Source: a virus. Taken from it: a stretch of 49,110 bases of DNA. Positions 2,908 to 46,092 of the stretch are shown piece by piece. The notes under the pieces are model-generated. The model was given only the letters and a program-made list of their open reading frames with translations. It was not told the origin of the DNA and did not search any database. A program made the position numbers and the translations under genes. Every line of letters starts with the position of its first letter. The stretch's first letter is position 1. Where the stretch lies: positions 1 through 49,110 of the IMG/VR virus record IMGVR_UViG_3300025941_000005; one strand, given 5' to 3'.

Positions 2908-5900
2908 ATGGGCGACCTCGGGCACGGCTGGAAAATCAGCGGCGTCGATCAGACAGACGCCACAGCTCCGCCCCCAGTCGATTTAGGGAAGGGGTGGAAG
3001 ATCGGCACGGCAGCCGCGGCGCCAACCACGCCAGCACCGGCGGCAGCTCCACCACCCGTTCCCGATACGAGAACCGGCCCGCAGATTCAAGCTGAAGAAC
3101 TCGACCCGCGTACCAACCTCCCCCGCACGGCAACGCCTCAGCTCCTCTCAACTCAGCGCACAGTAGCGGCACCTCCCCAGGTAGACGACCGCTCGGACGC
3201 CCGCAAATTCCTCGAGGACCCACTGATCAGTTCGAGCGATATCGACCGGGCAATCCCTCACAACCTGGCGGACGAAGCCGCGCACCCGATTCTGACGGCA
3301 CCGTTTGGAATAGCTCGAGGACTCCTCAAGGGCGCGGCCGGAATGACAAGCCCCTTGAATGCGGGAATCGTGGCAGCGACCGGAGGCCTCGGGATGGCGG
3401 CGGAAGCGACTACGGCGGCGACTGCTCAAGCTGCCCGTGTGGCTCAGTCCGGATTATCTGCCATCTTCGCGACCCAGGCCGGCAAAGCGGTATGGGACCA
3501 GGCGCCCGAAGTGGCACGTCTTTGGAAGGCGGGCGATACTCAAGGCGCGTTAGAAGCTGGCGGGCAGACCCTCATCAATGCCGCAATGGCGGCCGGCGCC
3601 GTGACGCATGCCGCGGGCTCATTAAGGCGAGCTGCCGAAATCGGCAAGATTGCCCGAAGCCTGCAGTCCGATCTAAACGCCCGGCAGCCAGCCGAACCCC
3701 CTCAACGGCCCGCCGGATACCTCCAGGCGCCACCGGAACCGGCAGCACCACCGGCAGAGCCCAGACCGGCCGCGGCACTACCGCCGGCACCCGACGCCGC
3801 TAAAGGCTGGAAGGTCGGCGCCGATGTGTTCGACCATGACCCGGTAGGAGAAGCTCAAGAAAAGTGGATCCGCTCTCAGGAGCTGGCGGAGATTGCCAGA
3901 CGCAACCCGCCGGCAGAGCCCCAGGTAGCAGCGGAAGCACAGCCACAACCGCCAGAACCTCAGCCACAACAGCCAGTTACCGTACCCGTTCCGCAACAAC
4001 AGACTGTAGCTGAAAAGCCACAACAGGCCAACACGCTAACGCCCCAGGGTGTACCCACAGAAGGTACACCCGCACCCGAAGATACGGCACTCCTCGACGC
4101 GATCGCAGGCAAGCCTTTTGCGAAGCTCTCGCCAGCCGAAAAGGAACTGACCCGAACGATCGCGGCACGTTTGAATCAGCCGGTACCGGAAGCTCACCAG
4201 GAGACGCCTGCCGAACCCGGGCAGGGATGGCGCGCACCTCGGCCGGAAGAAGCGGCACCTGCGGCACCATCACCACCGGCAGAGCGCGCACAACCCGCCC
4301 AGCAATTCGGCGCAGACTCGAAAGCCCGTCCTGCCGCTACTGCCGAACCTGCCGCTATCGACCTGGGAAGAGGCTGGAGCATGGCGCCGGCGGAATCCCG
4401 CCCGGCGGTACCGGAACCGAAGGCGGAGGCCCCGGCGGCGCAGCAGCTCACACCACCCGAAGACCGCAAGCCCGGGTGGGTCGGTAACGTTCACCCCTCG
4501 GAATTGACGGTAGATGCTCCCCGCTTCCAGTTCAAGCAGGACGTGGGACAGGGCGGAGTCTCGGACAAGCTGAAGGATGCTCGAGCCTACAATCCCGAAT
4601 TGGGCGGCATGCTGGCCGTTTGGAAAGATCCGGCGGACGGCAAAACGTACGTGGTCAATGGACACCACCGCCTCGACTTGGCGAACCGCCTGGACGCGCC
4701 CGCGGTATCAGTCCGGTACCTCGATGCTGCCAACGCGCAGGAAGCCCGCCTAAAGGGCGCCGTTATCAATATCTCGGAAGACCAGGGCACCTCACTCGAT
4801 GCGGCTAAAGTCTTCCGTGACTCCGGTAAGTCCATCGCACAGTTGCAGGATGACGGCCTCACCATCAAGGGCAAGATTGCGAGCGAAGGTCTTTCCCTCT
4901 CGAAACTCGATCCGGCGATCTTCCGCGATGTGATCAACGGCGATTTGAAGCCGGCCCGCGGCGCCGTATTGGGCAACCTGGCGAACCATGCGGACCAGGC
5001 GAACATTTACGCCGCGATGCAGGCCCGCGAAAAGACGGGCGACGGCATGACGGACGCCCAGGTCGCGGAACTGATCCGGATGAACGATCGGGCGCCCAAG
5101 GTTGTCGAGAAGGCCTCGGACAAGGCCCAGGCCAGCATGTTTGGGGACGAAGAGGATATCGTCCGCTCGCTCTTACCTGAGAAGGCAATCGTCTCCGAAT
5201 ACGTCCGGAAGCAGTTGGGCGCCGAAAAGAAACTATTCGGCCTGGTAGGCTCGCAGGCGGCAGCCGATAAGTTAGGAGCAGCCGGCAACGTCATCAAAGC
5301 GGGCGACAACGCCAAAGTAGCCGAAGAGGCAAACCAGGGGATAGTACTTTACGACAAGTTGAGCACGCACGCGGGCCCGATCGATGCGATTCTTGATCAG
5401 GCTGCGCAACGTCTCGCAGCAGGAGAAACCAGTGGAGCAGTCAAGCAAGACACCTATCGCCAAATCCGAGAACACCTCACCGGAGAAGTCGCCAAACTCA
5501 CGGGAGTTCGGAAAGTCGATATCGGCGGAGCTGAAGGACTGGGTAAAGAACGGCCATTGCAAGCTGGCCCCGGGCAACGAAATCAACTGGACGCCCCAGG
5601 AGTTAGCAGAGATGACGCCCGAGCAGCGGAAGCGCTGCCAGCCGAAGTAAAGGCACCCGAGCCACCCGCCAAGCCCCTCCAGGCGGCCGTAGAGAAGCAT
5701 GCGGCCGTAGTGGCTGACAGTAAAGCCAAGCTCACACCAGCCGAACATAACGCGCGTGCGGCAGAACTGCGAGCGGCAGCAGCCAAGCCCAAAATCACCG
5801 TTCACCCCGACTACGTGGCGCAGGCGGAAGAGTCCCGCAAGGCCCGCGACGAGTTCCACCGGCAGAACGAAGCGGAAGAGCGAAAGCAGGAACTGGCGGA

Positions 5901-8900
5901 CGAGCTCGAGAAGGCACGCGCGGAAAACGAGCGTCTCAAGACCGCCGGCAAACCCAAGAGTTTAGTTTCCGCTTCACTCCGCAAGACTGCCGACGCGATG
6001 GCGGCCCAGATCGAAGCCAAACGTAACCCCGCGATCGCGCAGCAGAACGTGACGCGGCGCCGTTCGGATATTGCGGCCGGCATGGCGCGCGAAGCGGACG
6101 GGCTCGAAGTCATTCAGGCGAAATTGAACGGCCTGGCGGACGCCCACGACGCCGGCACGATACCCAAGAGCCTCGCTAACGTCCGCACCCGGGCACTGGT
6201 CGAAGACCTCAACACCACGCGCGAGAAATTCCCGCACCCGTTCATTCATCAGGCGCAAATTCGGGACCTCGAAAAGCTGCAGGGCAAACCGGGCACCAAG
6301 GCGGCGCTCGACATCTTGCACAGGAACCAGCGCGACTCAGAGGGCGGCGCCCGCATCACGAGCCTCGAAGACATCGGCAAGGTTCGCGAGCTGGCGGAGA
6401 AGGCGGAGAAGGCCGGCATCTCGGCTGGCAAATATGCAAAGGCGGAACTGGCGAGCGCTTCCAGACTGTACGGCGCCGGCATCACTCCCGAGAAGTGGAC
6501 GCAAGCGAAAGCGGACCTCGCCAGCATCGGCAAGGTGAAGCCCGCGGTAGCGGCAATAGAACGGCAAATTAAAGACGCTGAACGCGCACTAATCGGGCAG
6601 AAAATTGCCGGCTACTTCCCAACACCTCAGCCCGTAGTGGGGCAAATGCTCGAAGCGGCGGACATCAAGCCCGGCATGAGTGTGCTCGAGCCCTCGGCCG
6701 GCAAGGGCAATATTGCCGACCGGATCCGCACCGATTCGCCCGACTCGAAGCTCTCCGTCATCGAACGTAACGGCGACCTCCGCGGAGTGCTCGAGCTGAA
6801 AAAGCACAACCTGGTGGGCGATGACTTCCTGGAACACAACCCCGGGCGTGATGCGGAATTGCGGGCAGACCTCGGCGTGAGTCAAGAAGTACTCGACTCC
6901 TACAACCCCGCGGCCGGCATCAAGAAACTCGGCAACAACTGGATGTACACGACCGTCCAGGGGAACGATAGCCCGCTCTACGACTCCAAGCACGAAGCGG
7001 TGGAAGCGGCCGGCCGGCACAAAGAGCTGAAGCAGGCACAGCAGGAGAACCCCACTGGCTACCGTGATCTCAGCTCAGTGAAGGCAAGGCAACACCTCGC
7101 GCTGATTAAGAAGTACCAAGACCAGGGCATGAGCGAAATGGAAGCGGGCGCCCGGGCAGTTCGCGAAGTTCCAGAGGCAGCGGAAGGCACCTACGACCGG
7201 ATCGTGATGAATCCGCCGTTTGAAAACGGGCAGGATGTTGACCACGTACAGCACGCCTATAAATTGCTGAAGCCCGGCGGCCGTATCGTCTCGATCATGG
7301 GCGAGCATCCATTTTTCGCCAATGACAAAAAGTCCGTAGCATTCCGTGAGTGGCTCGAAGCGCATGGCGGCACTGATGAGAAGCTGCCGGCCGGATCCTT
7401 TGAAGCCTCGGAGCGGTCAACCGGGGTAGCGGCGCGCATGGTAACGATCGACAAGCCGGCGCTCGAAGCCGATTCCTCCCGTGTACCGATGCTTTCGGGT
7501 AACCGGAACGAGGCCTACATCCCGGGGCAGTCGACGGATTATCACTCTCAAAATATGGTGTTCGAGCCTCACGAACTCGACGGGACGGACCAGAAGCGCG
7601 TGGTAGCCCTGGTAACCAACCAGAGCGGCATGGAGTACGTTCAGCGGTTGGCCGGCAGGCCGCGGGACCAGGGCGGGCTCGAACACATAGCTACTCACCT
7701 CTCCCCTCAACATGCGGCCACGGTGGCGAATCTGGCAAAAATCGTAAACCCGAGTTCTGCCTCGCGGCAACTCGCTGCGGCGGCGCGGGAGGCTGCAAAG
7801 GCTGGCAAGTCTCTCGTGATCGTGGTGGACCACGCGAGTATTCCGGAAGAGCTCAGAACGACTGCGCTCAACGAGGAACTGGACCATCGCATTCAGTCCG
7901 AACTCCGCGGCGGAGCAGCCAGACAGCACCTCAGCGAGCAGGCTTCTAAGCGGCTCACCGAAAGCACGACTCGCGGCCAGCAGGCAACCACGTCACTGGG
8001 CCACTACGGATTCACCACACACGGCGAGGCGGCCTCGGAAATCGGAGTACGCCTCATGCGTCCAGGCCGGTACCGCGAATTGAACCTCACATTACCGGAA
8101 GCCCGTTCCCTGGGCGCCGATTATGTGCGAACGTTAAGGAAGGAGTATGGAAGTGTCCCACCAAGAGAAATCGCCCGCCGGGTCTTTGACGCACTCCGCA
8201 GCCCAGATCGACGAGGCGGAAGACAATCTGACGCGCTGCCTGGAAGCGTACGACCAGAAGGGGGAAGAGGGCCTGCAGGCGGAATTAAGCCGGATTCATC
8301 CATCGCCCGGCGCCCAACTGAGAAGGGAGCAGTACACAAGCGGCCCGTTCGCGGGGAGTTACTACCAGAGACTAGTGCCCAAGAACCGGGACTCTTCGAC
8401 GCCGACACCGAACGACAGTCGCAAGTAGACACGAAGCGCGGGGAAGACAAGCTCCTCGGCGATCAACTCACCGCACAGATTAAATCAGGCCTCGCAGCAA
8501 AACCCACGAAATTGAAGCCGGCGGAGAACCGCGGCTTATTTGAAGAGGAACGACCCGAACAGGGCGGCCTGTTCGATAGCTTTAGACTCCCCCGCAAACC
8601 CCCGCCCGCAGGACTGAGCGCTAAAGACAAGGAATCCGGCGAGAACGCGCGTTACTGGTTTACCAGCAGGCGCGACTTGTGGGGCGCCCGCGTTAACCAG
8701 GTGCTTGAAAATCTGCGAAAGGTGGTACCCGATCCGATCGACCAGGAAGCTATCGCCATCTATCGCGATTTCAAGAGCAGGCCTGGGGAACTGGCGCAAT
8801 GGCTCGCCGGCACGCACGCGGCATATGGCGAAGTGGAACGGGTCGACCACGCCCGCGAGAATATCGAGAAGCTCCGTAAGCCAATTGAACGGGCCATGAA

Positions 8901-10797
8901 CCCGACCGACGCGATGAAGGAAGCCGACCACGCGCTAACGAAGATGGCGGCGGCCTCACTGGCGGAAGGGCAGCGGTTGGGCTTCATTGACAAGCACGTC
9001 AAGCCCGAAGAGTACGTAACGCACCTGCTCGAGCGGGAGATGGAAGAGAAAGACCCCAGTTTCATGGAGCAGGCGGGCAGGGCGCTCGGCAACAAGATCG
9101 GGACAAACTTCCCGTACAACCAGCAACGCAATTTCCCCACGCTCTTAGATGCAGCGGCCAACAACTACAGACCGCGGACGTTGAACGCCTTCACTGCCTT
9201 TCAGACCTACGGCGATAAATTTGCGACGGCTCGAGCCACGCACATGCTCAAACAGCAGTTGCTCGACTCGAAAATGGCTATCTATGGCTCACCAGGAGAC
9301 AAGAACGTACCGCATGGCTGGAAAGAGATCGCCCCGCACGCGCAGCTATTCCGCAACCTGATCGGTTATTCCGATGCGGAAGGGAATCCCAAGGCGGCCC
9401 AGGAGACGCTGTACACGGCGCCTGTGATTGAGGCGGCATTGCGGCCTATCACGGATCCGGACTACACCAGCAAGATTGCAGGCTTCCGTAAGCTCCGCAT
9501 GTTCCAGGCGTACACCAAAGCCGCACAGCTCGGCCTGTCTTTCTTCCATGCTGTCTCGCTGAATTACGGCGCACTGGCAGGCCAGGGATTCCGCGGCTAT
9601 ATCAAGGCTTTGAAGTCTATCGGCCTCGGGCCCGAAATGCACGAAATGGAACGGGAGCTGATTAAACAGGGCGGCACCACCGGCATACAGGGCAAGATTT
9701 ACGAATCGTATAGCTCTGTCGAACCCACGTCATTACCCACCGCAGCGCAGAAAATCGCGAGTTTACCGGGCGTGCGGCATCTCGACCAGGCGGCGCGCCA
9801 TATTTCGGAATTCACTTTCAACAAAGTCCAGCGGCCTTACAAAATCGTCCACTACGCGCTTGAAAAGGCGGCCTGGATCGCAAAGCACCCGCACGCTACA
9901 CCGGCCGAAGAGAATACAGCCCTCCGCTCGATCGCGAAAACGGTCAATGCGCTCTATGGCGGGATCCACTGGGAAAACATAGGGGTGAATAAAACCACCC
10001 TCGAGGTTGGACGTGCGGCCGTACTTGCACCCGATTGGACGTACAGCAACTACCTGCTCGCGCAATACGCCTTTGAAGGCGGCCCGAAAGCTGCCTGGAG
10101 TCAGGTAGCGAAAGCGGTGGGACTGGGCGACAAGGTACCGCCCGAATGGGAAGGCCCACCGGCCGGCGACATGGCACGCAAGTATTGGGTGCGGTCGATG
10201 CTCTTCGGAATTGCGGCCACCCAGGCGGCCTCGCTCTTAATTTCAGGCCACTACTCCGACCGTCCAACCCAGGTGTACTTGGGAGACAAGGACGGCAAGC
10301 GCATCTATCAAAACATGTTTTTCAAGGGTGCCGCGGGCGATGTGACGAACCTCGGCTACAACATCAAGGACTATGGCATCGTGCTCGGCCCCAGCCGCAC
10401 AGTCGGCAACAAGGTGGCGCCGGTGTGGCGTACGCTCGATGACCTGCGATTGAACAAGGATTTCCTGGGGCGGACGCTTGTACCCAAGGGCATGAACATG
10501 GCGGCGGGATCACTCCGCGGTATTGGCTACGCCGCAAAGGGCATGGCGCCGGTACCGTGGAGCGTATCGAACATGGGCACGATGATGCTCGAGCACGAAA
10601 AGTACAAACTGCCGCTCGAGGCCCTGACGACTTTATTCGCCGGCACGCCACCGTCACACGTGGCAGAGAAGAAGGGCGCGGACAAGGACACGCTCGGATT
10701 CTGGGACCAGTTGATCACGGGCAAAGTCCATGCGACCGCGCCCCGCGGCTCACCCGAAGAAAAACTTAGGCGCGAACAAAAGCGTTTGATGAAGTAG
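2908..10797 (+). CDS. Giant polyvalent protein: ParB-like + N6-adenine methyltransferase
   Basis: 2,629 residues. Order: short 'GxGWK' motifs at 6-10 and 29-32; Ala/Gly-rich hydrophobic helices 115-230; Pro/Glu/Gln linker to about 510, with more GWK motifs; ParB/sulfiredoxin-like domain 520-700 with 'VVNGHHRLDLANR'; charged coiled coils 920-1200; an N6-adenine methyltransferase with motif I 'LEPSAGKGN' (E1261) and motif IV 'NPPF' (1435-1438), separated by an insertion of about 165 residues; a segment with 'NEELDHRIQSEL' near 1655; a linker; and a long helical C-terminus (1905-2629). The architecture recalls 'large polyvalent proteins' and P1 DarB, which enter the cell with phage DNA and block restriction. 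It lies in the ejection-protein position, so co-injection is plausible. Two other reading frames inside look independently coding (5432-5650, 8147-8428). Confidence 0.85.
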   Translation: MGDLGHGWKISGVDQTDATAPPPVDLGKGWKIGTAAAAPTTPAPAAAPPPVPDTRTGPQIQAEELDPRTNLPRTATPQLLSTQRTVAAPPQVDDRSDARKFLEDPLISSSDIDRAIPHNLADEAAHPILTAPFGIARGLLKGAAGMTSPLNAGIVAATGGLGMAAEATTAATAQAARVAQSGLSAIFATQAGKAVWDQAPEVARLWKAGDTQGALEAGGQTLINAAMAAGAVTHAAGSLRRAAEIGKIARSLQSDLNARQPAEPPQRPAGYLQAPPEPAAPPAEPRPAAALPPAPDAAKGWKVGADVFDHDPVGEAQEKWIRSQELAEIARRNPPAEPQVAAEAQPQPPEPQPQQPVTVPVPQQQTVAEKPQQANTLTPQGVPTEGTPAPEDTALLDAIAGKPFAKLSPAEKELTRTIAARLNQPVPEAHQETPAEPGQGWRAPRPEEAAPAAPSPPAERAQPAQQFGADSKARPAATAEPAAIDLGRGWSMAPAESRPAVPEPKAEAPAAQQLTPPEDRKPGWVGNVHPSELTVDAPRFQFKQDVGQGGVSDKLKDARAYNPELGGMLAVWKDPADGKTYVVNGHHRLDLANRLDAPAVSVRYLDAANAQEARLKGAVINISEDQGTSLDAAKVFRDSGKSIAQLQDDGLTIKGKIASEGLSLSKLDPAIFRDVINGDLKPARGAVLGNLANHADQANIYAAMQAREKTGDGMTDAQVAELIRMNDRAPKVVEKASDKAQASMFGDEEDIVRSLLPEKAIVSEYVRKQLGAEKKLFGLVGSQAAADKLGAAGNVIKAGDNAKVAEEANQGIVLYDKLSTHAGPIDAILDQAAQRLAAGETSGAVKQDTYRQIREHLTGEVAKLTGVRKVDIGGAEGLGKERPLQAGPGQRNQLDAPGVSRDDARAAEALPAEVKAPEPPAKPLQAAVEKHAAVVADSKAKLTPAEHNARAAELRAAAAKPKITVHPDYVAQAEESRKARDEFHRQNEAEERKQELADELEKARAENERLKTAGKPKSLVSASLRKTADAMAAQIEAKRNPAIAQQNVTRRRSDIAAGMAREADGLEVIQAKLNGLADAHDAGTIPKSLANVRTRALVEDLNTTREKFPHPFIHQAQIRDLEKLQGKPGTKAALDILHRNQRDSEGGARITSLEDIGKVRELAEKAEKAGISAGKYAKAELASASRLYGAGITPEKWTQAKADLASIGKVKPAVAAIERQIKDAERALIGQKIAGYFPTPQPVVGQMLEAADIKPGMSVLEPSAGKGNIADRIRTDSPDSKLSVIERNGDLRGVLELKKHNLVGDDFLEHNPGRDAELRADLGVSQEVLDSYNPAAGIKKLGNNWMYTTVQGNDSPLYDSKHEAVEAAGRHKELKQAQQENPTGYRDLSSVKARQHLALIKKYQDQGMSEMEAGARAVREVPEAAEGTYDRIVMNPPFENGQDVDHVQHAYKLLKPGGRIVSIMGEHPFFANDKKSVAFREWLEAHGGTDEKLPAGSFEASERSTGVAARMVTIDKPALEADSSRVPMLSGNRNEAYIPGQSTDYHSQNMVFEPHELDGTDQKRVVALVTNQSGMEYVQRLAGRPRDQGGLEHIATHLSPQHAATVANLAKIVNPSSASRQLAAAAREAAKAGKSLVIVVDHASIPEELRTTALNEELDHRIQSELRGGAARQHLSEQASKRLTESTTRGQQATTSLGHYGFTTHGEAASEIGVRLMRPGRYRELNLTLPEARSLGADYVRTLRKEYGSVPPREIARRVFDALRSPDRRGGRQSDALPGSVRPEGGRGPAGGIKPDSSIARRPTEKGAVHKRPVRGELLPETSAQEPGLFDADTERQSQVDTKRGEDKLLGDQLTAQIKSGLAAKPTKLKPAENRGLFEEERPEQGGLFDSFRLPRKPPPAGLSAKDKESGENARYWFTSRRDLWGARVNQVLENLRKVVPDPIDQEAIAIYRDFKSRPGELAQWLAGTHAAYGEVERVDHARENIEKLRKPIERAMNPTDAMKEADHALTKMAAASLAEGQRLGFIDKHVKPEEYVTHLLEREMEEKDPSFMEQAGRALGNKIGTNFPYNQQRNFPTLLDAAANNYRPRTLNAFTAFQTYGDKFATARATHMLKQQLLDSKMAIYGSPGDKNVPHGWKEIAPHAQLFRNLIGYSDAEGNPKAAQETLYTAPVIEAALRPITDPDYTSKIAGFRKLRMFQAYTKAAQLGLSFFHAVSLNYGALAGQGFRGYIKALKSIGLGPEMHEMERELIKQGGTTGIQGKIYESYSSVEPTSLPTAAQKIASLPGVRHLDQAARHISEFTFNKVQRPYKIVHYALEKAAWIAKHPHATPAEENTALRSIAKTVNALYGGIHWENIGVNKTTLEVGRAAVLAPDWTYSNYLLAQYAFEGGPKAAWSQVAKAVGLGDKVPPEWEGPPAGDMARKYWVRSMLFGIAATQAASLLISGHYSDRPTQVYLGDKDGKRIYQNMFFKGAAGDVTNLGYNIKDYGIVLGPSRTVGNKVAPVWRTLDDLRLNKDFLGRTLVPKGMNMAAGSLRGIGYAAKGMAPVPWSVSNMGTMMLEHEKYKLPLEALTTLFAGTPPSHVAEKKGADKDTLGFWDQLITGKVHATAPRGSPEEKLRREQKRLMK
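5432..5650 (+). CDS. Overprinted small gene inside the giant gene (+1 frame)
   Basis: A 72-residue protein read one base ahead of the giant frame. GTG at 5432 is preceded by AGGAG (5421-5425) with 6-nt spacing; an ATG at 5384 in the same frame lacks such a site. About 58 of its 72 codons end in G or C (near 80%), as in the phage's confirmed genes, while the giant frame over the same bases drops to roughly 46%. The product is polar at the N-terminus and ends in 'AELKDWVKNGHCKLAPGNE' and 'WTPQELAEMTPEQRKR', which reads like a real helical protein. Function unknown; overlapping internal phage genes are often lysis or anti-host factors, but nothing here shows that. Confidence 0.55.
   Translation: MEQSSKTPIAKSENTSPEKSPNSREFGKSISAELKDWVKNGHCKLAPGNEINWTPQELAEMTPEQRKRCQPK
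8147..8428 (+). CDS. Second overprinted small gene inside the giant gene (+1 frame)
   Basis: A 93-residue acidic, helical protein. The ATG at 8147 follows AAGGAAGGAG (8136-8145); its first half is spaced properly for initiation. About 75% of codons end in G or C in this frame. The giant frame here is an Arg/Pro/Gly-rich linker with many A-ending codons, the signature of a frame constrained by another. It contains 'IDEAEDNLTRCLEAYDQKG' and 'QYTSGPFAGSYYQRLVPK'. Function unknown. The giant protein continues open on both sides, so this is not a simple frameshift error that would truncate it. Confidence 0.55.
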   Translation: MEVSHQEKSPAGSLTHSAAQIDEAEDNLTRCLEAYDQKGEEGLQAELSRIHPSPGAQLRREQYTSGPFAGSYYQRLVPKNRDSSTPTPNDSRK

Positions 10798-11073
10798 TTA
10801 AACGGCGCCTAACGCCTGTTTCGCGTCCGCGTCCGAGATAACCTGACTCGTCGTACACTCCACTACGTCCGCCCACTTGGCGAGCGTACCGTGAAGCAAT
10901 TTCGGGTCGCCCGTCTCGAGCAGCACATACCCCGTACCTTCTCCCACCACATGCCAGGAATTCACAACCGTGATTCCGGCCGGCATGGCATGACCGGACT
11001 TCAGAAATTGCGCGATGGATTTCTTGTGGTCCTTCGTTCCCCACTTCACTAAATATTGAGCGGCGGCAGGCAT
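10798..11073 (-). CDS. DUF3303-like small protein
   Basis: A 91-residue alpha/beta protein. The pattern 'LVKWGTKDHKKSIAQFLKSG', then 'PAGITVVNSWHVVGEGTGY' and 'LLETGDPKLLHGTLAKWAD', fits the DUF3303 family of small ferredoxin-like-fold proteins (recalled, not searched); their function is unknown. AAAAGGAG lies 6 nt before the ATG. Its stop codon abuts the giant gene's stop with no base between, a tail-to-tail arrangement. It is the last gene of the leftward block that starts near 14899. Such proteins are usually bacterial, so it may be acquired cargo. Confidence 0.75.
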   Translation of the reverse strand: MPAAAQYLVKWGTKDHKKSIAQFLKSGHAMPAGITVVNSWHVVGEGTGYVLLETGDPKLLHGTLAKWADVVECTTSQVISDADAKQALGAV

Positions 11074-11315
11074 AGCGACTCCTTTTCAAAATGGGACGCG
11101 ATCGCCAAACCGTCTTGGCAGAACCGCGCCCCATTGTTGAGACAACTTCCAGTCCGTGCTGATTTCCTCGGCGTCAGCTCACCGGCCCGCTGCTGCACTT
11201 TATCCCCAGCGAGGTAGGATACTCCCAGGAGTCAACCACCCAGGAGTTTCCGCCTTCTTCGCAGTTGGCGGATTCTTCTACGCTGGCAAGTATTACTCCT
11301 GCACAGCCAGCCGAT
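11074..11315. other. Intergenic stretch with an open minus-strand frame lacking a start
   Basis: 242 bp between two leftward genes. A minus-strand frame overlapping the end of the 11316-11774 gene stays open for about 50 codons and looks protein-like ('ILASVEESANCEEGGNSW', ending 'KCSSGPVS'), but has no start codon with a ribosome site. It may be a frameshifted extension of the upstream gene or a decayed gene. The DUF3303 gene's ribosome site is at its left edge. Confidence 0.35.
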
Positions 11316-23120: not shown

Positions 23121-23164
23121 CCGATAAGCCTAATTAGATGCAGGTGAAAAAAGAGGACCAACCC

Positions 23165-23500
23165 ATGCCAGACGCTTTGCTCGACGTTTTCACTCACGAC
23201 CCGGTGGAGGAAAAAATGGAAGCCTACATTCGATCGGAGGAGTTGGCGGCAATAGCGAGATATCGAGACATGCCCCGCGTGGCTTCACCTGAACAAAAGG
23301 TTCGCACCCTGGTCTGGCAAGATTGGGCAGCAATCGCTTTATGGCTGGTCCTGTCAATGGTGTTTGCGCCTTCCTTGATCGCTACCGCCGGGTGGGAATC
23401 GCTCGCGGCAAGGATTATCAGCGGCAGCATAGCGGCACTGGTGTTACCGAGTGGAGTTGTCCCGTTCCTTTACTTGATGGCGAGGGCGAAGGCGAATTGA
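23165..23500 (+). CDS. Membrane protein carrying a motif shared with the giant protein
   Basis: 111 residues from ATG 23165, chosen because AGAGGA lies 7 nt upstream. Residues 7-33 ('DVFTHDPVEEKMEAYIRSE', ending LAAIARY) match the giant protein at 306-332 in 18 of 27 positions. Residues 50-105 hold two hydrophobic spans ('AAIALWLVLSMVFAPSLIA', 'ISGSIAALVLPSGVVPFLYL'). The shared module may bind the same partner. Function otherwise unknown; a membrane-anchored immunity or assembly factor is conceivable. Confidence 0.65.
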   Translation: MPDALLDVFTHDPVEEKMEAYIRSEELAAIARYRDMPRVASPEQKVRTLVWQDWAAIALWLVLSMVFAPSLIATAGWESLAARIISGSIAALVLPSGVVPFLYLMARAKAN

Positions 23501-23558
23501 TTCCTGCCTTAATTGAGTACATTTCACTCTGATATTGCCGCAACATCGAAGTAACGTT

Positions 23559-24188
23559 ATGAAATGTGCGATCTATGCTCGCGTCTCGAAGAAGGAAGGC
23601 CAGGATACCGAGAACCAGCTCCTCGACCTCCGCCGGTATGCGAAGGCGCAGGCCTGGGAGGTCGTTGAATACATCGACCACGACACCGGCAAGCACGCGA
23701 ACCGGGACGCCTTCAAAGAGCTGGTAGCGGATGCCAGCCGGCGGAAGTTCGGGGTAGTCCTCGTGTGGGCACTCGATCGCTTCACCCGTGAGGGAGTGCT
23801 CGAGACGTTCGGCCACGTCCGGAAGCTATCCGACTACGGCGTACAGTTCGAGAGCTACACCGAGCCATTCTTCCGCACCACGGGGCCCGCTGGCGAGCTG
23901 CTGATGGCCGTCCTTGCCTGGGTGGCGAAGCAGGAACGCCAACGCATCAGCGATCGCACCAAGGCCGGGTTGGCCATTGCCCGCTCCAAGGGGAGAGTCG
24001 GCGGCCGGCCGGCCAAAGTCTTCGACCGTGACCGAGCGCGCGCGATGCGCAACCAGATTCCGCCGATGAGCTGGCGGGCGATCGGCCTCGAGTTGGGGGT
24101 GGCACATTCCTCGATTCGGGACGCTCTAAAGCCTGTACGAGAAACGTCTCGCCCAAAACGCAAAAAGCGCGTTGCAGACAAGTCCTGA
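23559..24188 (+). CDS. Serine recombinase (resolvase/invertase family)
   Basis: 209 residues. Catalytic Ser10 in 'YARVSKKEG', Arg8, and the second active-site helix 'WALDRFTREG' (D73, R74, R77) are intact; dimer helix about residues 95-125; C-terminal HTH 'MSWRAIGLELGVAHSSIRDA'. Small resolvase/invertase type, unlike large phage integrases. It would invert or resolve a DNA segment between short sites, or resolve multimers. The frame opens earlier, but ATG 23559 fits the family start. A second recombinase beside the tyrosine integrase is notable. Confidence 0.9.
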   Translation: MKCAIYARVSKKEGQDTENQLLDLRRYAKAQAWEVVEYIDHDTGKHANRDAFKELVADASRRKFGVVLVWALDRFTREGVLETFGHVRKLSDYGVQFESYTEPFFRTTGPAGELLMAVLAWVAKQERQRISDRTKAGLAIARSKGRVGGRPAKVFDRDRARAMRNQIPPMSWRAIGLELGVAHSSIRDALKPVRETSRPKRKKRVADKS

Positions 24189-27476: not shown

Positions 27477-27668
27477 TTGAGCCCCTGTGGAGTTCCTCTT
27501 CCCCAACCCGATGCAGCGTCACCACCGGATGAACCGGAAGTTCACCAATGGGGCAGCTACGACCCTACGCTGGCCGAAGAGATTGAAGGCTTCCTGGTGA
27601 CACTGCCCGGCTGGTTGATTGAACCCGCTGCAATGACGGAAATCCTCGCACTCCTGCATGCTGCTTGA
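27477..27668 (+). CDS. Small acidic protein, unknown function
   Basis: 63 residues, TTG start. Pro/Asp-rich N-terminus, then 'YDPTLAEEIEGFLVTLPGWL' and 'EPAAMTEILALLHAA'. Its 3' end overlaps the terminase small subunit gene by 11 bp. No family recognised; start uncertain because no strong ribosome site is visible. Confidence 0.55.
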   Translation: MSPCGVPLPQPDAASPPDEPEVHQWGSYDPTLAEEIEGFLVTLPGWLIEPAAMTEILALLHAA

Positions 27669-28146
27669 AGACGAAAACGAAGACGACGACGAACAACCGC
27701 TAGGCCCCGCGGATCCGAGCGTCTGGCCAGGCGTACTACCAAAACAGGCGGCCTTCCTGACCGCCTTGGTAATGTTCGCAGGCCACCGTACGAAGGCAGC
27801 CAGGGCGGCGAAGATCTCGCGAGCGCTCACGTATCACTGGCAGGATACCGACGCTACTTTCAAATTGTTGCTGGAACGCGCACAGCGGCAGGCCTTCGGC
27901 ACTCTCGAAGACGAGATGATCCGGCGCGCCCATGACGGCATCAGCCACGGCATTTATTACCAGGGTGAACGGGTCGCATTCGAGCGGGTTTATTCAGACG
28001 GAATCATGATGATGCTGGCCAGGGCAGGGGATCCGAAGTACCGCAGCTCGGAATTGCAGGTCAAGGGAACAGTGGATCTGAAATTTAAGGGCGAGCTCGC
28101 GGACCTCCTCGACGTGTACCGGCAACTGACGAAGACAGCAGAATGA
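27658..28146 (+). CDS. Terminase small subunit
   Basis: 162 residues. Acidic start, then an HTH 'KQAAFLTALVMFAGHRTKA' plus 'AARAAKISRALTYHWQD', then helical oligomerisation region ('FGTLEDEMIRRAHDGI') and a C-terminal helix. TerS recognises phage DNA and loads it onto the large subunit. Lies directly before TerL with ATGA overlap, the standard order. Confidence 0.8.
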   Translation: MLLEDENEDDDEQPLGPADPSVWPGVLPKQAAFLTALVMFAGHRTKAARAAKISRALTYHWQDTDATFKLLLERAQRQAFGTLEDEMIRRAHDGISHGIYYQGERVAFERVYSDGIMMMLARAGDPKYRSSELQVKGTVDLKFKGELADLLDVYRQLTKTAE

Positions 28147-29864
28147 CCCCCACGCTCACCAGCTACGAGGCAGAGCAGCTTATCCGGGGATTCTCGGACC
28201 ATGCGAAGTTCTGCCAGCACCTGCAAATCCGCAATAAAGACGGGGTGACCGTCCCCTATCGCAATTCTCCGGCAGGGGCGAAATTGAACCGGGCAATTCG
28301 TAAGCAGGAACTCGCCGGCGACCCCGTGCGCGTGGTCATGCTGAAAGCGGGCCAGGTCTGGGCCTCGAGCAGTGCGGCAACCGAACTATTCCGCAGGATT
28401 CCATTCTTTCCCGGCCGGCGCGCACTCGTCTTGGCCGACAGCGACCAGCACGCGGACCTTGTTTTCGAGTATTACCAGCAGTACATCCGCTCCTATGCGG
28501 ACAACCCGTACGGCTCGGAACTGAATTCAGCCATCGAACTACCCGACCTGATCAAGGACACGGAGCGGCACATCCGCTGGTCTAACGAGAGTTCCATCCT
28601 GGTCGGCACCGCCTACAATGCCGACATCGGCCGAAGTGCACCGTACAACTGGGCGCACCTCTCGGAAGCAGCTTTCTACCGCAACATGGGCACGCTCATG
28701 ACCGGCTTAATGCAGAGAATCCCGAACTCTGCGGATTCAGGCGTGATCATCGAATCCACAGCCAACGGCACCGGCGGAGACTTTTACGACCTGTGCCAGC
28801 GCTCGATGGATCCACGGCGCGCCACTGGCTGGGCATTCGTATTCTTCGGCTGGTGGGAACACCCCGAGTACCGCATGCCGACACCGGCAGGCTTCAAAAT
28901 CACGCGCGATGAACTGGCGGAAGTCCAAAAGTACAACCTCCATATCGATCAGATCGCATGGCGCCGGCGGCAGATCGATACCGCGTGCGAGGGCAAGATT
29001 GAGCGCTTCCGCCAGGAGTTTCCCGGCAACCCGCAGGAAGCCTTCCAGGCGTCTGGCCGAACCATCTTCGACATGGTGGCAGTCGGCAGAATGCGCACGA
29101 TCCAGGACGGCATGCGCGGGAAGTTGCAGGTGGTCGACATCGGCACCGAGAAGCGCGTACAGTTCCAGCAGTCGGAAGACGGCCGCGGCGAACTCGTCAT
29201 CTACCAACTGCCCCGTAAGGGCGGGCACTATGTAATCGGCATCGACCACGCGGAAGGAATCGACCCCAAAGCGAAATCCGCCGGCAGCTCGGATCCAGAC
29301 TACTGCTCGGCCACAGTCCTCGATGCGGACACCGGCGAAGAAGTCGCCAAGTTAAAAGAGCGATACGAACCGCACCCGTGGGCGCAGGCCTGTTACCTCC
29401 TGGGCAAGTTCTACCGCTGGGCATTCCTCGCACCCGAACAGAAAGCAGTGGGCAAAGCGATGATCGGGCAACTGCTGGCCCTGCAGTACCCACAGGAATT
29501 GATTTACAGCAAGCAGCGGGATCCAAGTGACCGCAGGACGCCACTCTTGCAGGAACTGGGATTCGACACAAATTCGGTTTTCAGGCCCGTGCTGATTTCA
29601 GGCCTCGACCAGGCCTTGCGCGAGTCCGCAATACAGGTGCACGACCCCGAGACGCTGCAGCAGCTTCGCGAATTCGTGCGCAAGCCGAACGGCAGGGAAG
29701 AAGGCACCAGCCACGATGATGATGTCTTCGGCCTCGCGCTGGCTGTAGAGGGATTGCCATATGCGCGTCGTGCTTTCCTCTACAGGGAATCCCGATCCAA
29801 AGAAGACACCCAGTGGAAGCCCCAACGCTACGGGCAGCAGGTAAAAGAACTCGATGACGACTAA
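28143..29864 (+). CDS. Terminase large subunit
   Basis: 573 residues. ATPase domain: Walker A region 'VVMLKAGQVWASSSAATELF' (K68-S76), Walker B/catalytic 'AHLSEAAFY' (171-179), coupling motif 'IIESTANGTGG' (202-212). RNase-H-like nuclease: 'YVIGIDHAEG' (D368), 'SDPDYCSATVLD' and 'HDDDVFGLAL' near the end, giving the expected acidic triad. It packages DNA into proheads and cuts it. Unusual point: Walker A is KAGQVWASS, where relatives usually show KxRQxGxS, so R is replaced by G and the core G by W. Followed at once by a regulator gene. Confidence 0.9.
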   Translation: MTPTLTSYEAEQLIRGFSDHAKFCQHLQIRNKDGVTVPYRNSPAGAKLNRAIRKQELAGDPVRVVMLKAGQVWASSSAATELFRRIPFFPGRRALVLADSDQHADLVFEYYQQYIRSYADNPYGSELNSAIELPDLIKDTERHIRWSNESSILVGTAYNADIGRSAPYNWAHLSEAAFYRNMGTLMTGLMQRIPNSADSGVIIESTANGTGGDFYDLCQRSMDPRRATGWAFVFFGWWEHPEYRMPTPAGFKITRDELAEVQKYNLHIDQIAWRRRQIDTACEGKIERFRQEFPGNPQEAFQASGRTIFDMVAVGRMRTIQDGMRGKLQVVDIGTEKRVQFQQSEDGRGELVIYQLPRKGGHYVIGIDHAEGIDPKAKSAGSSDPDYCSATVLDADTGEEVAKLKERYEPHPWAQACYLLGKFYRWAFLAPEQKAVGKAMIGQLLALQYPQELIYSKQRDPSDRRTPLLQELGFDTNSVFRPVLISGLDQALRESAIQVHDPETLQQLREFVRKPNGREEGTSHDDDVFGLALAVEGLPYARRAFLYRESRSKEDTQWKPQRYGQQVKELDDD

Positions 29865-36884: not shown

Positions 36885-37826
36885 ATGATGATTCGTGGAC
36901 AATTCTCCGATTTCTTTTATGAGACGATGCTCCCCGCGCTCAATGCCAAAATCTGGAAGAGCTTCAACGCTAAGAAGGCGATGGCGAAACAGTTCCTTTC
37001 GAGCGATACCACCACGCGCTCGATCGAGCAGTATTCGTTTATGGCCGGCGTCGGACTGCCGACCCTGGTAGGCGAAGGCGAAGACACCCCGACCGATAAC
37101 TTCGTTCAGGGGTTCAACAAAACGTTCAAGCCCGTGAAATATGGGCTCGGCATTCCCGCCAGCCAGGAGCTGGTAGAAGACGACAAGGTGGGCATCATCG
37201 GCAAACGCTCGGTGAAACTCTCCGATTCGATCTTCCAGGCCCGCGAGATTCAGGCGGCCTCCGTCATCAATAACGGATTCGCCCTGACCGACTCGGCCGG
37301 CAACTCAACCGCACTGCCAGACGGCAAGGCGCTTTTCGCCAGCGATCACCCGCTAGTGAAATCGGGCGGCACGCAAAGCAATATCCTGTCGGTTGCGGCC
37401 GATCTGGACGTAGCGTCTCTGGAACTCGCACTCACCGACTGGGAACTGATCAAGTCGCATGAAGGCTTCCTGCAGATGCTGCCGACCCCGCGCGTATTCA
37501 CCGCTTCTCAGAACCGCTGGAACGTGGCGGAAATCCTGAAGAGCCAGATGCGCTCGGACACAGCAAACAACACGGCCAACGCCTTCAAGTACACCGAGAA
37601 CGGCGGAGTCATCGAGTCCCTCACCTGGGCCTATTTGACCGACCCGGACGCCTGGGGCCTTATCGGGCCTCCGGACGAAACCGAACTGCTCTGGCTCGAC
37701 CGCAAGGCGCCTTACACCAAGGCGGACTACGTGGAAAAAAATGAGACGGGCATTGTTTATATGCGTTACAGGGCCACTTACGGCGCCTACGGTTGGCGTG
37801 CTATATACGCTACTCCTGGCGCATAA
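36885..37826 (+). CDS. Major capsid protein, Mu gpT-like
   Basis: 313 residues. Starts 'MMIRGQFSDFFYETMLPAL' with a charged helix, then 'SFMAGVGLPTLVGEGEDTPT' and 'LFASDHPLVKSG', and a beta-rich end ('WRAIYATPGA'). The layout and phrases match Mu-like gpT capsid subunits with an HK97 fold. Forms the icosahedral shell. Followed by a strong terminator, typical for a highly expressed gene. Confidence 0.85.
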   Translation: MMIRGQFSDFFYETMLPALNAKIWKSFNAKKAMAKQFLSSDTTTRSIEQYSFMAGVGLPTLVGEGEDTPTDNFVQGFNKTFKPVKYGLGIPASQELVEDDKVGIIGKRSVKLSDSIFQAREIQAASVINNGFALTDSAGNSTALPDGKALFASDHPLVKSGGTQSNILSVAADLDVASLELALTDWELIKSHEGFLQMLPTPRVFTASQNRWNVAEILKSQMRSDTANNTANAFKYTENGGVIESLTWAYLTDPDAWGLIGPPDETELLWLDRKAPYTKADYVEKNETGIVYMRYRATYGAYGWRAIYATPGA

Positions 37827-45279: not shown

Positions 45280-46092
45280 ATGGGATTCGAGAAAAACTAT
45301 CTCTTCGGCAAAGTGGACATCGATTTAACCTCGACGGGTTCAGGTGTGTTCACTTTGCAGACCGACATTCCCGGCCGTGCATTGGCGCAGACGTTCAGCT
45401 TCACGATTCCATCGGGCACTCGGCGCCCAGTTTCTTCGCGGCTGCCGGGCACCATGCAGGGTCACTACTGCACCGGGCGATACGTACCCGCGGCTGGTGG
45501 ACAGACGGAACTCTACGGCGTAAGGGTATGGGCCCGGGAGCTGCCAACGGGCCAGTGGGCGTGGTACGTGCTGCCCGTGGTCGAGACGGGGCTCGAATAT
45601 CAGGCCATCAATCTGCCGGTAGAACCAACAGGTACGAGCTATTCCAAGCTCGAGCTGCCAGTGGAACCTACCGGCGAATCCTTTTCCAAGATGAGTCTGC
45701 CGGTAGAACCGACCGAAGAGAGTTTCCAAAAGCTCAGTCTGCCGGTGGAACCCACAGGCGAGAGCTACAGCCCCGTGCAAATTCCGGTGGAACCTACCGG
45801 CGAGACGTATTCCAAAATGGCGCTACCCGTGGAGCCAACCAGCGAGACGTACAGCCCGCTATCGATACCCGTTGAACCCACTGGCGAAACGTACTCGAAA
45901 ATGGCGCTACCCGTTGAACCCACCGAGGAAAGTTTTCAAAAGCTCAGTCTGCCGGTTGAACCGACAGGCGAGACGTACAGCGCGCTTACCGTCCCGATTG
46001 AACCGACCGGCGAATCCTACTCTCAGATCAAGCTGCCAGTGAAGAGTACGCCACCCGTTCCTGAATGGGTTGACGTTGGCGTTGACGAATGA
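45280..46092 (+). CDS. Tail fibre-like protein with 14-residue repeats
   Basis: 270 residues. The N-terminal 100 residues resemble the shared tail beta domain ('VFTLQTDIPGRALAQTFSF'). Residues 112-251 hold ten tandem 14-residue repeats (consensus LPVEPTGESYSKMS) and then a short tail. Such repeats form a stiff beta-strand or polyproline-like stalk. It probably links the tail tip to the spike gene downstream, with repeat number free to vary. Confidence 0.7.
   Translation: MGFEKNYLFGKVDIDLTSTGSGVFTLQTDIPGRALAQTFSFTIPSGTRRPVSSRLPGTMQGHYCTGRYVPAAGGQTELYGVRVWARELPTGQWAWYVLPVVETGLEYQAINLPVEPTGTSYSKLELPVEPTGESFSKMSLPVEPTEESFQKLSLPVEPTGESYSPVQIPVEPTGETYSKMALPVEPTSETYSPLSIPVEPTGETYSKMALPVEPTEESFQKLSLPVEPTGETYSALTVPIEPTGESYSQIKLPVKSTPPVPEWVDVGVDE
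45613..46032 (+). repeat. Ten tandem 42-bp repeats encoding VEPTGE units
   Basis: Ten in-frame units, each 42 bp, from 45613; a degenerate eleventh starts at 46033. Units differ mainly in silent positions and in the last residues (KMS, KLS, PVQ, KMA). Units 5 and 7 encode the same 14 residues, as do units 3 and 8. Repeat-number variation is likely. Confidence 0.85.

Follow-up and report, generated by a model that had tools for sequence, protein, structure and literature searches.

Giant phage proteins that are delivered with the virion and carry methyltransferase (MTase) or ParB domains have been published as phage polyvalent proteins (Iyer et al. 2017, PMC5512222), and in the DarB-type proteins the MTase is paired with a SWI2/SNF2 helicase and an LPD36 domain (PMC5512222). 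The giant protein of the F116 group of phages is structural in phage H66 and has been likened to N4-type injected proteins (PMC5217972). P-SCSP1 and uvMED T7-like phages have a giant ParB protein in the gp15/gp16 region, after the tail-tube genes, and the authors of the P-SCSP1 study considered such genes, by their size and position, to be likely internal virion proteins (PMC9860041).

The window, by which we mean the whole stretch of DNA analyzed, is a linear IMG/VR virus record of 49,110 bases. Genes for TerS and TerL lie at 27658-29864, one for a major head protein at 36885-37826, and one for a tail-spike-like protein from 46526 up to the right end; these mark the virus as a tailed phage. 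Near the tail-spike gene, positions 45280-46092 encode a 270-aa protein with about ten 12-residue repeats (LPVEPTGESYSK), and the product of 23535-24188, an invertase/integrase-type serine recombinase (phrog_125, phrog_95), hints at inversion or lysogeny. The giant gene, whose span and length agree with an earlier note on this DNA, is a single frame of 2,629 codons with an ATG start and no internal stops; the motif positions in that note are also exact (NGHHR at aa 584-588, LEPSAGKG from residue 1260, NPPF from residue 1435). The giant gene, its parts, and the three genes upstream are laid out as follows.

618-1172, + strand: GNAT-fold gene (PF13302, phrog_651), first of the upstream virion-type trio
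1096-1707, + strand: small gene in gp14-like position; true start probably just inside
1722-2906, + strand: 394-aa gene in gp15-like position, directly before the giant gene
2908-10797, + strand: giant polyvalent protein gene, 2,629 aa (open reading frame check)
2914-2937, + strand: N-terminal motif copy 1, DLGHGWKI, aa 3-10 (duplication p<0.005 versus shuffles)
2980-3003, + strand: N-terminal motif copy 2, DLGKGWKI, aa 25-32 (duplication p<0.005 versus shuffles)
3799-3816, + strand: weaker later motif copy, AKGWKV, aa ~298-303
4219-4233, + strand: weaker later motif copy, GQGWR, aa ~438-442
4360-4377, + strand: later motif copy, DLGRGW, aa ~485-490, immediately upstream of the ParB domain
4474-5553, + strand: ParB_N-type domain with conserved C-terminal extension, aa ~523-882 (alignment, hhalign)
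6325-7557, + strand: predicted gamma-class (TaqI/HsdM-like) N6-adenine MTase with N-terminal helical part, aa ~1140-1550
6844-7188, + strand: putative mobile domain inserted between MTase motifs III and IV, aa ~1313-1427 (homolog comparison)
7555-8277, + strand: conserved domain, EExDHxxQ ... AxEIGVRL, aa ~1550-1790; possible degenerate metallopeptidase
8608-10794, + strand: putative C-terminal carrier module, possibly LPD38-like by fold, aa ~1901-2629 (57 viral loci)

Both ends of the protein had been described as long and helical. This holds for the C-terminus, which is mostly helical in the AlphaFold model, but not for the N-terminus, which is largely a linker rich in Pro, Ala, Glu, and Gln. 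A stretch of ~35 residues (DVFxHDPVxExxExxIRSxELAxIAR) at residues 305-341 (3820-3930) recurs in a 120-aa protein with hydrophobic stretches encoded at 23138-23500, and is absent from the remaining loci compared.

The giant gene lies next to virion structural genes, as polyvalent protein genes do, and is the last of a run that resembles the gp13-14-15-16 internal-protein genes of T7, and hence occupies a T7 gp16-type position. The earlier note had placed it after two ejection-type genes; the position is borne out, but the genes number three (the GNAT-fold gene and two small ones). The trio is syntenic in relatives: among 51 loci with the C-terminal carrier module, some of which are repeats of one contig, homologs in the same order were found for the GNAT-fold gene at 25, for the 1096-1707 gene at 18, and for the 1722-2906 gene at 10. 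Unlike T7 gp16, the giant protein lacks a transglycosylase domain, is twice the size, and carries DNA-modifying enzymes; T7 gp16 also has two transmembrane segments, whereas a crude hydropathy test found no strong one in the giant protein (top 19-residue value of 1.3). Packaging in the virion, which the earlier note had raised, is backed by homology: the record of the Pseudomonas phage H66 homolog is annotated 'verified by mass spectrometry', and that of gp43 of Salisaeta phage SSIP-1 is annotated 'structural protein'. Based on these homologs, the giant protein is very probably a component of the virion that enters the cell along with the DNA. We consider it likely that the protein is a polyvalent ejection protein at the T7 gp16 position that combines a carrier with exchangeable enzymes, and that its MTase, once injected, would protect the DNA from restriction.

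The MTase has the motifs FPTP (residue 1237), LEPSAGKG, and NPPF, and so shows the TP and NPP(Y/F) motifs of the EcoKI/TaqI-like gamma MTases of DarB-type modules. FPT(P), EPSAG, and NPPF are conserved in homologs with 35-47% identity, and 34 diverse homologs show little or no variation in FPT, in NPPF, or in EPSAG, where G/S/A hardly vary. Together with the identities reached by homologs of the ParB domain and of the C-terminal region (below), this conservation greatly exceeds what chance would give. Detection of homologs required alignments, as the single giant-protein sequence scanned against viral contigs gave 0 matches; homologs were found in 193 phage records and at 576 candidate places in viral contigs and 356 in bacterial genome contigs (80 kept from each of the latter two sets). 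A profile search with the family retrieved M.TaqI and HsdM subunits, and HsdM and M.TaqI were also among the best matches in a fold search of the MTase model, the core of which has a pLDDT of ~95 or above. By motifs, profile, and fold, the domain is a predicted, intact N6-adenine enzyme of the TaqI/HsdM (gamma) type, and apparently active. The adenine MTase proposed earlier is thus upheld, also by a structure search of the kind that the earlier note had suggested.

The distance from motif I to motif IV is 167 residues in the giant protein, compared to a usual spacing of ~50-60 in homologs; the gap between motif I and NPPF is 50-59 residues in 121 of 152 MTase matches, which are not independent of each other. 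The extra segment, previously given as 165 residues, is real but shorter (~115 residues, 1313-1427), because most homologs already have 50-60 residues there. At least 100 residues fill this loop in 25 of the 152 homologs (from partly redundant contigs), with at least three unrelated kinds of insert. The inserted domain is free-standing in two other giant proteins (loci L232 and L194): it matches a Pontiellaceae MAG protein at 46% identity over ~95 aa, ~900 residues ahead of the MTase of that protein, and an Acidobacteria MAG protein at 38%, downstream of its MTase. These free-standing homologs imply that a mobile domain landed in a tolerant loop, and by this comparison the insert is a mobile domain of ~115 aa at an MTase insertion hotspot; it gave zero matches when compared with named phages. 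About 20 MTase homologs (L023, L024, L064, L072, L092, L176, L222, and others) have an unrelated domain of ~60 aa, of the FTYGDVFRAPDG... type, in the same loop. In alpha-class MTases, such as Dam, the recognition domain sits between motifs III and IV. The insert occupies the equivalent slot and might, tentatively, help in DNA recognition.

An MTase interrupted in this way could be an inactive enzyme retained as a DNA-binding scaffold, given that the 115-aa domain breaks up the fold and that the neighboring 1550-1790 domain looks degenerate. Nevertheless, none of the catalytic or SAM motifs is damaged and the modeled core is well formed, and we regard loss of activity as very improbable. The 1550-1790 domain itself is conserved and confidently folded in the model, with the motifs EExDHxxQ and AxEIGVRL; the HExxH motif of zincin-like metallopeptidases is absent from it, and EELDH is found instead. 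A zincin identity was rejected: there is only a weak register match to HELQH of the H66 protein, the first His is missing, and other comparisons were negative. PDB profile and PDB fold searches with this domain returned nothing convincing.

The ParB-like domain with a GHHR motif near residue 585, likewise pointed out in the earlier note, proved to be related to ParB_N. It aligns in a family of 29 sequences (alignment A12) that have VxNGHxR and neighboring residues in common, and its best homolog is 59% identical. The Pfam ParB_N profile (PF02195) does not match the domain directly, and a PDB profile search with it found nothing convincing. The family does match the ParB_N region of SSIP-1 gp43 (hhalign probability of 97.9%, E-value of 3e-13), and gp43 in turn scores 27.7 against PF02195 (cut-off of 26.3). 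By homology to this PF02195 member, the domain is of the ParB_N type. A DdrB-like ParB (PF18763) was rejected, with 0 of 29 profile matches and an hhalign probability of 0.2% against four PF18763 members; the DdrB type is a separate family that is present on other carrier proteins. ParB and MTase occur together in 8 distinct proteins, in either order. In a Nostocales cyanobacterium locus (L187), homologs of the two domains lie in two nearby separate genes (4346-6202 and 8237-11104), which is a further link between ParB and MTase.

Elsewhere, ParB-type domains are nonspecific nickases or nucleotidases (PMC5512222). The domain of the giant protein is likely to bind DNA, nick it, or hydrolyze nucleotide, and it may tether the MTase to phage DNA. 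The same precedent would fit an MTase and ParB that target host DNA or other targets, marking or nicking the DNA of the host or of competing phages, and do not protect the phage itself. We consider such a function improbable: the domains recur in association with ejection genes, and no methylation-reading nuclease was found linked to them.

The C-terminal module (aa ~1901-2629) belongs to a family found at 57 viral loci and lies at or near the C-terminus of 41 distinct viral proteins, with identities of up to 57%; the region has no match among named phages. Domains upstream of it comprise ParB, DdrB-ParB, histidine phosphatase, zeta kinase, SLT, FtsK gamma, PBECR1, ART, radical SAM, 2H, helicase, and Acb1-like domains, and two members have a lytic transglycosylase domain, which is also a feature of T7 gp16. 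Since this region is reused with quite different enzymes in related phages, the giant protein can be classed as a modular entry protein, a broadly known kind, with some unusual details. Close relatives differ in their cargo: L096/L097 have ParB, the 1550-1790 domain, and the carrier without an MTase, and L098 and L100 have ParB and the carrier only. The MTase is missing from most carrier relatives, close ones included, and is therefore not essential to the carrier. PDB profile and PDB fold searches with the module found nothing convincing. Foldseek matched the carrier model, which also included the 1550-1790 domain, to viral proteins whose annotation names large polyvalent-protein domains, LPD38 in two cases (best E-value of 8e-15, TM-scores of ~0.3-0.4). 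The LPD38 profile (PF18857) matched 1 of 35 carrier members (E-value of ~0.01), and hhalign of the carrier against the LPD38 end of a Vibrio phage protein gave 1.6%. We therefore describe the module as possibly LPD38-like, by fold only; sequence profiles do not confirm LPD38. These ~730 residues may be the constant carrier or structural part, responsible for loading into the virion and passage through the portal, with linkers and exchangeable enzymes (here ParB_N and MTase) upstream.

With ParB_N-type and N6-adenine MTase activities predicted in one polypeptide, the protein combines at least two unrelated activities, as polyvalent proteins do. The possibly new class suggested by the earlier note is therefore not sustained, as proteins of this kind are already published and a mobile domain at a hotspot accounts for the insertion. 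The tailless Salisaeta icosahedral phage SSIP-1 offers a similar protein in gp43, a single giant annotated as structural with MTase and ParB_N, but gp43 has the reversed order, 2,319 aa, no insertion, and no detected carrier module. The H66/F116 giant has the same MTase subfamily (62% identity in the motif IV part) and is a virion protein by the mass spectrometry noted in its record; it differs in its length (3,787 aa), LPD23 and LPD3 domains, HExxH motifs, and lack of the insertion. In Vibrio podophages 41E34.2 and BA3, the same MTase lies in a giant protein behind a run of small coiled-coil genes, and the 41E34.2 giant ends in LPD38; unlike our protein, these giants have canonical LPD38 sequence and HExxH motifs, and no ParB_N was found in them. 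IMG/VR contig 3300049217_000104 (L102/L025) has ParB, MTase, and the same carrier, with related upstream genes, but neither the insertion nor the 1550-1790 domain. P1 DarB (EcoKI/TaqI-type MTase) and DdrB (ParB-superfamily domain) are virion-carried polyvalent proteins, as the giant protein very probably is, although the ParB family of DdrB differs from its ParB_N type. The comparison with DarB-type proteins made in the earlier note applies to the gamma MTase but not to the rest, as neither a SWI2/SNF2 helicase (no P-loop, no Pfam helicase) nor LPD36 (no Pfam match in pieces of the protein) was found. Judged from its sequence, the protein is a variant characterized by ParB_N, a gamma MTase with a nested mobile domain, this carrier, and no helicase.

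If the protein enters the cell together with the phage DNA, the MTase may mark the incoming DNA, or else DNA in the producer, and so spare it from cleavage by host restriction; anti-restriction at entry is a plausible, putative role. Several observations weigh against the overall reading of an injected, DNA-protecting protein. The protein lacks a helicase that would carry the MTase along DNA in the way proposed for DarB, the enzyme could act in the producing cell instead of at entry, most carrier relatives lack it, the MTase-bearing virion homologs do not share the C-terminal module by sequence, and there is no strong transmembrane segment. An unlikely alternative, that the protein is mainly a structural ejectosome component whose MTase methylates DNA in the producer before packaging and is only incidentally in the virion, would fit an enzyme encoded alongside virion genes, MTase-free carrier relatives, and the lack of an attached helicase or translocase. 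However, fusion to an ejection protein would be a poor way to methylate producer-cell DNA, and the remaining cargoes (Acb1, PBECR, ART, zeta kinase, transglycosylase) are most sensible in a newly entered cell. We favor an injected MTase.

The N-terminus of the giant protein has a doubled DLGxGWKI motif, with weaker copies further on in the linkers. A duplicated 9-mer within the first 70 residues (P-value of 0.01 or less by shuffling) was found in 24 of 41 carrier proteins versus 5 of 123 windows taken from the interior of these proteins, in a test that was devised only after the motif had been noticed and that took the first ATG as the start of related, and hence not independent, proteins. Because of this choice of starts, some negatives are possibly wrong starts. 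The duplication is also present in 13 of 45 other MTase giants and 6 of 27 other ParB giants, versus 2 of 50 other large open reading frames from the same loci. Positives include L096, L098, L100, L256, L262, L263, L276, L279, L280, L282, L283, L285, L290, and others, and the duplicated sequence is protein-specific (DLGxGWKI, DIFDQxA, LTPDSFM, HGPWEDY, GWSWGT); the H66/F116 giant has a duplicated motif of its own (KPWEEF). In a limited literature search, we found no description of such a motif.

The internal proteins Ip1-3 of T4 have only an N-terminal capsid-targeting leader in common (PMC12373910), and are a precedent for different anti-restriction cargoes behind one common address. The duplicated motif is a candidate for the address signal of proteins that are loaded into podovirus-type heads, comparable to T4 capsid targeting in logic and not in sequence. 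We tentatively propose, as a possibility with the odds against it, a carrier-cargo delivery system in which a constant C-terminal carrier and a duplicated, phage-specific N-terminal motif, acting as a packaging or docking address, bracket exchangeable anti-defense enzymes. This pattern is the part worth follow-up: if it is true, a shared carrier and address would deliver whatever enzyme sits between them at entry. For the giant protein, virion-delivered DNA methylation would be tied to a reusable carrier domain, and phages in which this carrier occurs either with or without the MTase are natural experiments that make the anti-restriction idea directly testable.
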